The position numbers were made by a program, and so were the translations under genes. From assembly GCF_029392675.1 (NCBI RefSeq), contig NZ_CP113941.1, forward strand, positions 422,001 through 486,000: a stretch of DNA of 64,000 bases, given 5' to 3'. Shown here one piece after another: positions 6,846 through 61,215 of the stretch; position 1 is the first letter of the stretch, and every line of letters begins with the position of its first letter. This DNA is from Lactobacillus sp. ESL0684. GTDB lineage: Bacteria > Bacillota > Bacilli > Lactobacillales > Lactobacillaceae. Under the pieces are notes generated by a model. It saw only the letters and a list, made by a program, of their open reading frames with translations. It was not told the DNA's origin and ran no database searches.

Positions 6846-6874
6846 TTGACAAAAAGTAAGTAAAAGCATAGCAT
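6846..6874 (+). promoter_or_regulatory. Candidate promoter of the amino acid ABC operon leader
   Basis: Consensus TTGACA at 6846-6851 with TAGCAT 17 bp downstream (4 of 6 matches to TATAAT). Transcription from here would start near 6880 and give an untranslated leader of about 240 nt before the first permease gene. It is the best promoter I can see in the 375-bp gap at 6745-7119; another TTGACA at 7004 has no convincing -10. Confidence 0.45.
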
Positions 6875-6919
6875 ATAAGACACTTACAGATAATAAGTAA
6901 GAAAGGAATATAATCTACG

Positions 6920-6985
6920 ATGCAGCTTCAAACTTGTCCAATTCAATGTTTAAATAAATTAACTGTTTGCTATTTGGTGCTGTAG
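6920..6985 (+). CDS. Candidate 21-residue Cys-containing leader peptide
   Basis: ATG at 6920 opens 21 codons ending at TAG 6983-6985, with AAAGGA at 6902-6907 (12-nt spacing, slightly long). Cys codons fall at positions 6 (TGT, 6935), 10 (TGT, 6947) and 17 (TGC, 6968). Three Cys in 21 codons is striking because the binding protein it precedes has none. The stop codon lies inside GTAGTT (6982-6987), which repeats part of the descending arm of the downstream terminator. This fits a ribosome-stalling leader that senses cysteine supply, but such a short frame could occur by chance and translation is unproven. Confidence 0.4.
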   Translation: MQLQTCPIQCLNKLTVCYLVL

Positions 6986-7014
6986 TTGTATTCTACTTTT
7001 TTATTGACAATAGG

Positions 7015-7054
7015 AAAGAACTACGCAAAGTCACATAGACGCGTAGTTCTTTTT
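7015..7054 (+). terminator. Terminator/attenuator hairpin upstream of the amino acid ABC operon
   Basis: AAAGAACTACGC (7015-7026) and GCGTAGTTCTTT (7041-7052) form a perfect 12-bp stem with a 14-nt loop, ending in five T residues. It sits between the probable promoter and the first gene, so it would act as an attenuator. GTAGTT at 6982-6987 could pair with AACTAC at 7019-7024 and disrupt the stem. Confidence 0.75.
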
Positions 7055-7119
7055 CTTAGTAACGGTTAGCTGGACGCAAATAAGTGCCAGTAGTTTGATT
7101 AGGAATTGGGGGGTAAAAG

Positions 7120-7779
7120 ATGAGTTGGCAAATTATTGCGCAAAGTTTACCAATTTTTGGTAAGGCCTTTTTATTAACCATTGGTCTAGCTTTAGTTGGA
7201 ATTTTGGGTTCGCTAATTGTTGGAGTCATCAGTAGTTTAATCCAGTATTTCAAAGTGCCAATTTTAAACCAAATTGTAACGGTTTATGTTGAAGTAGCAC
7301 GTAATACGCCATTATTAATTCAATTGTTCTTCTTGTATTATGCTTTTCCAGTGTTGGGGTTAAAATTGAAAGCAACTACTTGTGGGATTATTGGACTGAT
7401 CTTTTTAGGCGGTGGCTATATGGCTGAAGGCTTTAGTGGCGGCTTTAGTGGAGTCAGTTCCAATCAAATTGATGATGGTAAAGCCTTGGGGATGAATCAG
7501 TTCCAGTTAGCTCGATATGTTATTTTTCCACAAGGCTTTGCTTTGAGCATGCCCGCTTTAACGGCCAATATTATTTTTTTAATCAAAGAAACATCCATCT
7601 TTTCAGTAATTGCTATTCCAGAATTAACCAATACCGCTCTTGACTTAATCGGTATGTATTATCGGTCAAATGAATATCTACTAATATTGGTAATTGCCTA
7701 TGCGATTATTTTAATTCCGGTAATCTTATTACTTAATTATTGGGAAAGGAGAGTTCGTTATGGAACATTCGGCGATTAA
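7120..7779 (+). CDS. Polar amino acid ABC transporter permease 1
   Basis: A 219-residue inner-membrane subunit of the HisM/GlnP type with about five membrane segments. The EAA-type cytoplasmic loop that docks the ATPase is near residues 124-143 (DDGKALGMNQFQLARYVIFP), and ARNTPLLIQLFF is a typical family motif. The start is ATG at 7120 after a run of six G residues. It overlaps the next permease by 20 nt, so the two are probably translationally coupled and form a heterodimeric pore. The substrate is inferred from the binding protein as cysteine or cystine. Confidence 0.9.
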   Translation: MSWQIIAQSLPIFGKAFLLTIGLALVGILGSLIVGVISSLIQYFKVPILNQIVTVYVEVARNTPLLIQLFFLYYAFPVLGLKLKATTCGIIGLIFLGGGYMAEGFSGGFSGVSSNQIDDGKALGMNQFQLARYVIFPQGFALSMPALTANIIFLIKETSIFSVIAIPELTNTALDLIGMYYRSNEYLLILVIAYAIILIPVILLLNYWERRVRYGTFGD

Positions 7780-8434
7780 TGTTTTGTTTGCCGGTGATAA
7801 CTTTGCAAGGCTGATGCAGGGATTGTGGACATCTGTTTGGATTGCTGCAGTTAGCTTAATTATTGGTTTGATCTTAGGGACAATTTTTGGGATTTTACGA
7901 ACGCTACCAAACAAAGTGGTTCGGTTCATTTTACGGCTATACCTGGAATTCTTTCGAATTGTACCAACAATTGTTTTATTGTATTTAGCATATTATATTT
8001 TACCGCGTTCTTTGCATATTAACTGGCCAGCTAGCTGGATGGCAGTGATTGCCTTTTCTTTATGGGTAGCTGCCGAATTTAGTGATATTGTGCGAGGGGC
8101 CATTGAATCGGTTCCAGTAACGCAAAAAGAATCTGGACTTGCCTTGGGATTGAGTCAGGTACAGCTATTTCGGTACGTTTTACTTCCACAAGCTGCTAAA
8201 TTGGAATTGCCGGCTACAATTAATTTGGCTACGCGAGTGATTAAAACCACATCATTGTTAATGACGATCAGCATTATTGATGTTATCGCGGTTGGACAGC
8301 AAATTATGGAAGCTAATAATCAACGGTATCCTAATGCAGTCTTTTGGATTTATGGGTTGATTTTTATTTTGTACTTTGCAATTGATTATCCACTATCAGC
8401 TTGGGCCAAGCGCCTGTCTGCTAAACAAAAGTAG
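7760..8434 (+). CDS. Polar amino acid ABC transporter permease 2
   Basis: A 224-residue second permease of the same family. It has about five membrane segments, the FFRIVPTIVLLY counterpart of the family TP motif, and an EAA loop with KESGLALGLSQVQLFRYVLLP. The start is ATG at 7760 within the end of permease 1, preceded by GGAAAGGAGAG. It ends 9 nt before the ATPase gene. The two permeases are diverged paralogues, which suggests a heterodimeric channel. Confidence 0.9.
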   Translation: MEHSAINVLFAGDNFARLMQGLWTSVWIAAVSLIIGLILGTIFGILRTLPNKVVRFILRLYLEFFRIVPTIVLLYLAYYILPRSLHINWPASWMAVIAFSLWVAAEFSDIVRGAIESVPVTQKESGLALGLSQVQLFRYVLLPQAAKLELPATINLATRVIKTTSLLMTISIIDVIAVGQQIMEANNQRYPNAVFWIYGLIFILYFAIDYPLSAWAKRLSAKQK

Positions 8435-8443
8435 GTGAAATAA

Positions 8444-9184
8444 ATGACAGAAGAAATTTTACGTGTTGACCATTTGAATAAATTTTATGGTGATTGGCAA
8501 GCATTAAAAGATATTAATTTTACGTTGAATGAAGGAGAAGTGTTGACGTTACTTGGGCCATCTGGTTCAGGCAAAAGTACACTTTTGCGCTGTCTGAATG
8601 GACTGGAAGACTTTAGTGATGGCCAGCTTTATTTTAAAGGACAACAGATTCAGCCCACACAGCAAAATTGGCAAGCATTACGCCAAAAGATTGGCATGGT
8701 TTTTCAAAGTTATGATCTATTCCCTAACTTGACTGTTCTTGACAATATTCTATTAGCTCCAGTTAAAGTACAAAAACGTTCTGAAACAGAAGTTAAAAAA
8801 ATGGCAACTCAATTATTAAAGCAAGTTGGTTTATCAGAGTACGCAGCTTCTTATCCGCGAGAATTGTCTGGTGGGCAAAAGCAACGGATCGCGATTGTGC
8901 GAGCTCTAGCAATGCAGCCAGAAATGATGTTGTTTGATGAAGTTACGGCGTCGCTTGACCCAGAAATGGTGCGTGGCGTGCTAGAAATTATGACCAATCT
9001 CGCTAAAAAGCAGCACATGACCATGATTATTGTGACGCATGAAATGAACTTTGCTGCTCAAATAGCTGATCAGGTGTTATTTTTAGAGTCTGGTCAAATT
9101 GTAGAAAGTACTTCCGGCAAACAATTTTTCACTAAACCGCAAACTAAGCGTGCACAGGACTTTTTGACTAGTATGGATTTTTAA
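8444..9184 (+). CDS. Polar amino acid ABC transporter ATP-binding protein
   Basis: A 246-residue cytoplasmic ATPase. Walker A is GPSGSGKST (near residues 38-46), the Q-loop lies in GMVFQSYDLFPNLT, the ABC signature is LSGGQKQR, Walker B is MMLFDEVTASLDP, and the switch His is in IIVTHEM. Note DEVTASLDP where most members of this GlnQ/HisP group have DEPTSALDP: the Pro is replaced by Val while the catalytic Glu is kept. Length is normal. It is the third gene of the operon, 7 nt before the binding-protein gene. Confidence 0.93.
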   Translation: MTEEILRVDHLNKFYGDWQALKDINFTLNEGEVLTLLGPSGSGKSTLLRCLNGLEDFSDGQLYFKGQQIQPTQQNWQALRQKIGMVFQSYDLFPNLTVLDNILLAPVKVQKRSETEVKKMATQLLKQVGLSEYAASYPRELSGGQKQRIAIVRALAMQPEMMLFDEVTASLDPEMVRGVLEIMTNLAKKQHMTMIIVTHEMNFAAQIADQVLFLESGQIVESTSGKQFFTKPQTKRAQDFLTSMDF

Positions 9185-9194
9185 AGGAGAAATG

Positions 9195-10040
9195 ATGAAG
9201 ACACATAAGACTAGAAATATTGTGATTGGTGTTTTGGTAGTAGTTGTGATTGCAATTGCTGCCTTTTTCGGAATTAAGTCATCTAGTAGCAATAATTCTG
9301 CTGCTAATGATAGCAGTGTGAGTGCAATTAAAAAACGCGGAACATTAAAAGTAGCTGTCTTTGGCGATTTGCCGCCCTATGGTTGGGTTAATGATCATGG
9401 CAAACGGGTTGGCTATGATGTTCGTTTAGCTCGCCAATTAGCTAAAGATATGGGGGTGAAAGTTAAATTTGTTCAAGTCAACGCTAATAACCGAGTAGAT
9501 ACGCTGAATGCTAATAAGGCAGATCTAGTCTTGGCTAACTTTACAGTTACACCTGAACGTAAAGAAGTTGTGGATTTTGCTAAGCCTTATATGAAAGTAT
9601 CAGTCGGGGTTATTTCACCTAAGAAAAATCCAGTGACTAAGGCTAGCCAATTAAAAGGTAAGAACTTAATTGTAACCAAAGGTACAACTGCTGAAAATTA
9701 CTTTACTAAACAAAAAGGCGTTGACTTGCTGAAGTTTGATTCTAAGACACAACAGTTTAATGCAATCAAGAATAAACGTGCAGCTGCTTTGGCTGACGAC
9801 AATTCTTATTTATATGCTTGGGTAAAGCATAATCCAAATTATACAGTTGGCATTAAGAATATTGGGCCACAGCAATTTATTTCACCAGCGGTTAAAAAGG
9901 GTAATAAGTCGTTGTTAAATTGGGTAAATAAGGATCTAGCTAAGTTAAACAAGCGGCAATTCTTTATTAATGACTATAATCAAGAATTAAAACCATACTT
10001 TGGTAAAGAAATAAAGCCTAGTGATATTGTCCTAGACTAA
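9195..10040 (+). CDS. Amino acid ABC transporter substrate-binding protein, CjaA-like (probable cysteine/cystine)
   Basis: A periplasmic-binding-fold protein (SBP family 3) of 281 residues from ATG 9195. An in-frame ATG at 9192 is only 2 nt from the GGAG, so 9195 is preferred. A basic N-terminus is followed by one hydrophobic segment (about residues 8-27) and a Ser/Asn-rich linker. There is no Cys, hence no lipobox, so it is probably held by an uncleaved signal anchor. The core resembles what I recall of Campylobacter CjaA, a cysteine receptor: GDLPPYGWV, VNANNRV, LANFTVTPER, PYMKVSVGV, KGTTAENYFT, AWVKHNPNY and PAVKKGNKSL. Cysteine or cystine is inferred from this resemblance. Confidence 0.85.
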   Translation: MKTHKTRNIVIGVLVVVVIAIAAFFGIKSSSSNNSAANDSSVSAIKKRGTLKVAVFGDLPPYGWVNDHGKRVGYDVRLARQLAKDMGVKVKFVQVNANNRVDTLNANKADLVLANFTVTPERKEVVDFAKPYMKVSVGVISPKKNPVTKASQLKGKNLIVTKGTTAENYFTKQKGVDLLKFDSKTQQFNAIKNKRAAALADDNSYLYAWVKHNPNYTVGIKNIGPQQFISPAVKKGNKSLLNWVNKDLAKLNKRQFFINDYNQELKPYFGKEIKPSDIVLD

Positions 10041-10148: not shown

Positions 10149-10409
10149 ATGAAACAAGGCATTCATCCAGATTATCAAGAAGTTGTCTTCATGGACTCAG
10201 CCACAGGTGCTAAGTTCCTTGCAGGTTCAACTTTAAAACCAGATGAAACAGTTGATTACGAAGGTAAGACTTACCCATTAGTTCGGGTTGAAATTACTTC
10301 TGATTCACATCCATTCTACACAGGCAAGCAGAAGTTTGCTCAAGCAGATGGTCGAATTGAGAAGTTCAACAAGAAATACGGCAAGGACTTCAATACAAGC
10401 AGCAAGTAA
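10149..10409 (+). CDS. rpmE2: 50S ribosomal protein L31 type B (zinc-independent form)
   Basis: An 86-residue protein beginning [16 protein letters not shown], typical of L31 type B. It has no Cys at all, so it lacks the CxxC zinc site of type A. It sits on the large subunit at the bridge to the 30S head. In many Firmicutes the Cys-free form is induced by Zur under zinc limitation; here no Zur-box-like sequence was recognised. It is monocistronic, with a terminator 17 nt after the stop. Confidence 0.95.
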
Positions 10410-61140: not shown

Positions 61141-61146
61141 AGTACA

Positions 61147-61215
61147 GTATGTTTGTCCATGATAGGCCCCGGAAACTTATTGTTTTCAAACAACGTATAA
61201 ACGGAGGAAATTACA
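61147..61215 (+). promoter_or_regulatory. L13 leader-like 5' UTR of rplM
   Basis: About 69 nt between the predicted transcript start and rplM. GTTTG (near 61151) can pair with CAAAC (near 61188), enclosing a GGCCCCGG segment and a smaller hairpin, with the AACGGAGG ribosome binding site after it. An L13 leader is known before rplM in Firmicutes, and this region is in the right place. Assignment rests on position and simple pairing. Confidence 0.55.

Follow-up and report, generated by a model that had tools for sequence, protein, structure and literature searches.

Among the Firmicutes, leader-peptide attenuators have been described for histidine, in the leader of hisS/hisZ (PMC2965389), and for leucine, in a leucine-rich leader of S. 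aureus (PMC5794164). Cysteine leader peptides are known from Actinobacteria, those of Mycobacterium being without a conserved terminator hairpin (PMC1262725), and the polycysteine leaderless ORFs of mycobacteria (Canestrari et al. 2020, cited in PMC9031893) act on translation (PMC9031893). In the Rhodobacterales, ribosome-mediated attenuation has been proposed for uORFC-8-2, which precedes cysS (PMC8632094). A different device is found in L. paracasei FAM18149, where a cysteine-specific T-box (TGC) precedes the plasmid operon glnP2-glnM2-artM2-glnH4; log2 ratios of -2.5 to -2.9 were reported for methionine-deficient versus cysteine-deficient medium, corresponding to approximately 6-fold higher expression without cysteine (PMC6004538). 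A search of open-access literature found no description of Cys leader peptides for Lactobacillaceae or other Firmicutes.

The leader described here lies in a 64-kb window (the whole stretch of DNA that was analysed) from a 1.89-Mb Lactobacillus genome. Sequence comparison and modelling together indicate that it is very probably a ribosome-mediated transcription attenuator that senses the supply of Cys-tRNA(Cys) and controls a cysteine/cystine importer. As in the Actinobacteria, a short ORF with runs of Cys codons precedes cysteine-related genes, but unlike in the actinobacterial and mycobacterial leaders the ORF is led by a Shine-Dalgarno (SD) sequence and is accompanied by a terminator and an antiterminator. 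The window leader, with its SD, its terminator and a -10 box that ends 45 nt before the ATG, does not belong to the mycobacterial leaderless type. Its likeness to uORFC-8-2 consists in Cys codons within an upstream ORF followed by an intrinsic terminator, yet that element is alphaproteobacterial, serves cysS, and carries its Cys codons within the first stem. The cysteine T-box (RF00230) and the leader would both read the charging of tRNA-Cys at orthologous operons, but the T-box binds the tRNA directly, without a leader peptide.

Anatomy of the leader and its operon

All features of the locus lie on the forward strand. The promoter (TTGACA-N17-TAGCAT, 6846-6874), which is kept in relatives, ends 45 nt before the ATG of a 21-codon ORF at 6920-6985 that encodes the leader peptide MQLQTCPIQCLNKLTVCYLVL. 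This leader is poor in cysteine, with just three scattered Cys codons: TGT at 6935-6937 (codon 6), TGT at 6947-6949 (codon 10), and TGC at 6968-6970 (codon 17). Its SD, AAAGGA (6902-6907), is separated from the ATG by 12 nt, a long spacing compared with about 9 nt in the nearest relatives. An intrinsic terminator (3:4, 7015-7057) precedes the first permease gene; its stem of AAAGAACTACGC (7015-7026) and GCGTAGTTCTTT (7041-7052) is a perfect 12 bp with a 14-nt loop, and TTTTTCTT (7050-7057) closes it as the U tract. The initial annotation had placed the 21-codon frame, its Cys codons, the terminator, and the hexamers GTAGTT and AACTAC, and every coordinate agreed with direct reading: GTAGTT lies at 6982-6987, with the stop codon TAG at 6983-6985, and AACTAC at 7019-7024.

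Since the ORF comprises only 21 codons, and the terminator alone is ordinary, the frame might be a chance ORF before an ordinary terminator. This is scarcely credible, as an SD-preceded ORF of 12-40 codons with at least three Cys at the window's density arose in 0.04% (0.0004) of 5000 dinucleotide shuffles of the leader, and homologous Cys leaders with covarying pairings occur in many lineages. Across both strands of the window, 69 SD-preceded ORFs of 12-40 codons were counted, and the one at 6920-6985 is the single case with at least three Cys. A search of the same genome by di-Cys pattern gave no convincing further Cys leader; the in-frame matches that were followed were rejected as lying inside longer reading frames, and one other match as belonging to a terminator.

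The four genes at 7120-10040 are arranged in the order permease, permease, ATPase, binding protein. The first gene after the leader is amino-acid ABC transporter permease 1 (7120-7779), followed by amino-acid ABC transporter permease 2 (7760-8434), an ABC transporter ATP-binding protein (8444-9184), and a cysteine-type substrate-binding protein (SBP_bac_3, 9192-10040). The best solved relatives of the binding protein are 2yjp (E 1e-79) and 1xt8 (E 2e-71), which we take to be the cysteine receptor of Neisseria and CjaA, the cysteine receptor of Campylobacter, respectively. The downstream genes are considered cysteine-related because the binding protein is closest to these two structures and an orthologous operon carries a UGC T-box. 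A cysteine/cystine ABC importer is thus the best explanation of the operon, its substrate being a prediction. Nothing elsewhere in the window's genome exceeds 32% identity to the binding protein. In the permease tree, the window groups with bee-gut strains such as ESL0679.

Three further observations concern the surroundings of the leader. The promoter spacer AAAAGTAAGTAAAAGCA (6852-6868) has a core, AAAAGTAAGT, that is conserved across Lactobacillus leaders, including those without the Cys frame; this conservation exceeds what a promoter needs and may mark an operator. An L31-Firmicutes ribosomal protein leader (RF03156, 10109-10140) precedes an 86-aa ORF at 10149-10409, and an L13 leader (RF00555) lies at 61146-61196.

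Cysteine codons in related leaders

Distinct upstream regions of the permease orthologue were collected (143 in total), and leader ORFs were chosen by SD and ATG only, their Cys content being ignored. Cys leaders are present in 62 of the 143 regions, and at least three Cys occur in 42 of the 61 SD-picked leader ORFs, against 5% in shuffles. L005 and L008-L011, five leaders from the bee gut whose SD is weak, were included manually and do not enter the counts. Most leaders of Lactobacillus, Limosilactobacillus, and Companilactobacillus contain short Cys-rich ORFs, such as MLNNVMPNEFCSACCVVCNKLFGVIKIQ, MRNLNNVKQMQACCCVVMMQNTLLYYFSMPNTTLN, and MLNLQAVCQNCVCCPKDNTFLHTLIQHDVLRYNL. In these genera and in some Clostridia, orthologous leaders with motifs such as CCSCC, CCCVV, and CCCxCC far exceed the window leader in cysteine content. 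A peptide-based device had been expected to be unusual in lactobacilli; instead, in Lactobacillus and Limosilactobacillus it proves to be the arrangement most often found before this operon. Cys-rich leaders were also seen at five Clostridial loci, including L067 (..KMCCCMNCCFHMD..) and L074 (..TCCCKCCSCQSE). Their occurrence there is patchy, since a Bacillota search with a Clostridial permease yielded a Cys leader at none of eight further loci. No relatives were found in viral contigs.

The Cys codons are retained while their surroundings change. Across nine 28-codon Limosilactobacillus leaders, Cys11, Cys14, and Cys15 are invariant and their neighbours vary, with synonymous TGT/TGC changes at Cys11 and Cys15. 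Cys6 and Cys10 of the window correspond to Cys7 and Cys11 of its nearest relatives, MQKVQNCLTECLLKINGHSLFLQLISL, despite different flanking codons; Cys17 is absent from those relatives. Motifs resembling CCxCC, as found in many leaders, would bind metal or be redox-active, and the ORF product could on that account be a working Cys-rich microprotein (binding metals or thiols), or an arrest peptide responsive to metal or redox state, instead of a codon sensor. This is very unlikely, however: beyond cysteine the peptide sequences vary greatly from genus to genus, the N- and C-terminal codons that are conserved coincide with the ones pairing in the RNA, the window leader has spaced Cys only, and the operon is a predicted cysteine importer that stands under a Cys T-box elsewhere.

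Leaders of the bee-gut clade carry two or three Cys codons, fewer than elsewhere. In one sister bee-gut lineage (L003, L099, and L091), promoter and terminator are kept and the Cys frame is absent, which is read as secondary loss; in L098 the frame is truncated, with one Cys left. A terminator kept without its Cys frame had been named in the initial annotation as a case against attenuation. Such a case does exist, in that one lineage.

Other geometries were also observed. At L187 and L188 (-55 and -52 relative to the permease), Cys ORFs (MRMCQAMCMCKQQ.. and MCPCMCVMHQQ..) overlap the start of the permease, and no terminator lies between the two; this may be a translational variant akin to the mycobacterial type. 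The leaders of L139, L147, and L150 end in ..SMMACC, with Cys-Cys last before the stop and hairpins directly after. Given these differing geometries, the family does not share one uniform mechanism. In a further set of Lactobacillus loci (L016-L018, L020, L022, and L025, second copies in some genomes), no recognisable leader stands before the permease; the importer thus also exists without the attenuator.

T-boxes at the same position

No T-box (RF00230) was matched in the window leader at E<=10, the relaxed Rfam threshold, nor was any other Rfam family at the relaxed threshold. The window's own genome contains about 20 T-boxes, none of them at the leader. In Lentilactobacillus, Secundilactobacillus, and other Lactobacillaceae, a T-box occupies the same position, mostly with a UGC specifier, and the same operon stands under a UGC T-box in Lentilactobacillus and in Lacticaseibacillus paracasei. 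The region of L013 matches RF00230 end to end with 71 bits (E 1.8e-15), and that of the plasmid operon of L. paracasei ATCC 334 likewise with 62.8 bits (E 1.8e-13), both scores being below the Rfam gathering score of 93. GAAAGTGC is present in the specifier region of both. The binding proteins of ATCC 334 and the window share 79% identity, and we infer that the FAM18149 operon of PMC6004538 is the same operon as that of ATCC 334.

A Cys leader and a T-box were never seen together at one locus among the upstream regions examined. In the permease tree, the rows with a Cys leader (58) and those with a T-box (39) cluster, none of 500 shuffles scoring as low, and several switches between the two are apparent. 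At six loci before orthologous operons (L035, L044, L176, L184, L192, and L193), the T-box specifier looks by pattern match like ATG (Met), not TGC, which suggests a switch of the regulating amino acid.

Alternative pairings and their covariation

Three strands upstream of the terminator 3' arm can pair in alternative ways. Strand 1 (6895-6927) comprises the SD, the start codon, and the first codons of the leader ORF, and acts as a putative protector by pairing with strand 2. Strand 2, the 5' strand of the antiterminator, spans 6977-6996 (6975-7006 when paired to strand 1) and overlaps the stop codon, while strand 3 (7010-7028), its antiterminator partner, consists of the terminator 5' arm and its upstream flank. 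In the window, the predicted 1:2 pairing (6895-6927 with 6975-7006) has an energy of -22.9 kcal/mol versus -13.0 +/- 2.9 for shuffled sequences (p=0.003), and ranks among the strongest of the leaders compared; the 2:3 pairing (6977-6996 with 7010-7028) has -14.1 versus -10.6 +/- 2.5 (p=0.09 for the window alone). The core of 6-7 bp described earlier underestimates the antiterminator: the pairing takes in approximately 20 nt, to which the relatives add the terminator loop. The protector strand, which would hide the leader SD, was absent from the initial annotation.

Across the family, strand 2 tested against the terminator 5' arm alone gave no signal (mean rank 0.51), and this version of the test was rejected. 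In the alignment, a motif is found at the ORF end, ATTCAG-n4-CGTACTTC in Lactobacillus and ATTCAGTAATTTGTACTCTAGT in Limosilactobacillus. It is complementary to the terminator arm and loop (..GATCTACGAACTGAAT.. or ACTAGGCTTACAATTCTGAAT), and also to the leader SD and first codons (GGAGTAC..ATG CTG AAT). After the motif had been seen, the 2:3 test was widened to the terminator loop and the 8 nt upstream of the stem, and in this form each region tends to favour the partner from its own leader (mean rank 0.23, null 0.5). The 1:2 test, which underwent no such adjustment, likewise favours the own partner (mean rank 0.18, null 0.5), with p<0.1 in 23 of 31 representatives. Because the 2:3 test was redefined after the data were seen, it is given less weight than the 1:2 test and the covariation counts.

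For the covariation counts, the cores of 18 leaders were aligned by hand. In the 1:2 pairing, 84% of cells are paired, against at most 40% when slid, and 6 of 12 pairs are changed on both sides. In the 2:3 pairing, 91% of cells are paired, against at most 37% when slid, with three compensatory pairs, one of which is CG in 13 leaders and UA in 5. Since strand 2 is common to both pairings, all three strands change together. The alignment across lactobacilli that had been proposed earlier thus finds the Cys codons and both pairings conserved, with compensatory changes. An antiterminator that is exclusive with the terminator, with strand 2 near the ORF end, is seen at the level of the family; in the window alone the corresponding value is p=0.09. 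A search with the strand-2 motif in six Limosilactobacillus genomes found no further Cys leader, so the element looks specific to this operon.

The weak 2:3 pairing and the long SD spacing of the window, together with the fewer Cys codons of its clade and the loss and truncation in neighbouring lineages, could also mean that the family is a real cysteine attenuator of which the window holds a decaying copy, with Cys sensing weak or lost and promoter and terminator left. Yet its 1:2 pairing is among the strongest, Cys6 and Cys10 still match those of its relatives, and strand 2 still overlaps the stop codon, all of which makes decay unlikely. The initial annotation had read the leader as a cysteine attenuator, and this reading is supported: as the sequences diverge, the Cys codons are kept, strand 2 stays at the end of the ORF, and both pairings persist, and in other genera a Cys-type T-box stands before the same operon.

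Folding around the ribosome and the proposed mechanism

The window leader was folded under constraints representing ribosome footprints, before and after strand 4 is made. Before strand 4, the model without a ribosome gives P(1:2)=0.86 and P(2:3)=0.05. With a ribosome stalled at Cys6, P(2:3) becomes 0.58-0.65, and with one stalled at Cys10 and a second ribosome queued behind it, 0.66. If no ribosome is queued, strand 2 is not freed by a stall at Cys10 or at Cys17. With a ribosome at the stop codon, P(2:3)=0, and 1:2 is likewise not formed. After completion of strand 4, the terminator prevails whichever ribosome state is modelled (P 0.99), and the antiterminator must therefore act kinetically, by forming first. 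The model of classical attenuation likewise assumes that the antiterminator wins in this manner.

Together, these states suggest the following mechanism. Without translation, strand 1 would pair with strand 2, leaving strand 3 free to form the 3:4 terminator, and the operon would be off. When cysteine is ample, the ribosome translating the ORF would reach the stop codon and cover strand 2, so that transcription would again terminate. Under a shortage of Cys-tRNA, the ribosome would stall at the Cys codons, perhaps followed by a queued one, and so would occupy strand 1 and leave strand 2 free. Strand 2 would then pair with the terminator 5' arm once this is transcribed, and RNA polymerase would read through into the operon, switching it on in response to cysteine shortage.

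Most of the relatives folded in the same way gave the on/off pattern of the window, usually with a second ribosome having to be queued on the SD; the pattern was not clean in L103, nor in L002, for which the second terminator was scored. As the leader's own SD and start make up strand 1, and the Cys block lies about one ribosome downstream, one stalled ribosome would be insufficient in most relatives. The modelling thereby raises the tentative possibility, which we consider doubtful, that in most relatives the attenuator reads queues, with a second ribosome on the SD having to hold strand 1 for the antiterminator to form. If this were true, the switch would measure sustained stalling, in the form of ribosome queues, and not a single pause.

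Discussion

The leader shares with the classical trp/his/ilv attenuators, represented in Firmicutes by the His and Leu leaders, its codons for the end product, a strand 2 at the end of the ORF, mutually exclusive 1:2, 2:3, and 3:4 pairings, and an intrinsic terminator. It differs from them in three respects: the amino acid is cysteine and the gene controlled encodes a transporter; the leader's own SD and start codon, before the regulatory codons, serve as strand 1; and the antiterminator of the relatives takes up the terminator loop as well as the 5' arm. Pairing between a leader's SD and a segment downstream of it is likewise described for the E. coli trp leader, and for this reason the architecture is not called new in kind.

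Our observations suggest that attenuation by Cys-codon leader peptides is a widespread arrangement ahead of the cysteine importer in gut and bee lactobacilli, with scattered occurrences in Clostridia, although T-boxes would have been expected. At one operon, within one bacterial family, there would thus be two alternating ways of reading the charging of Cys-tRNA, which makes this operon a clean case in which to study how one RNA sensor takes the place of another. The distribution of the two also predicts which lactobacilli would raise cysteine uptake on starvation, and through which element they would do so.
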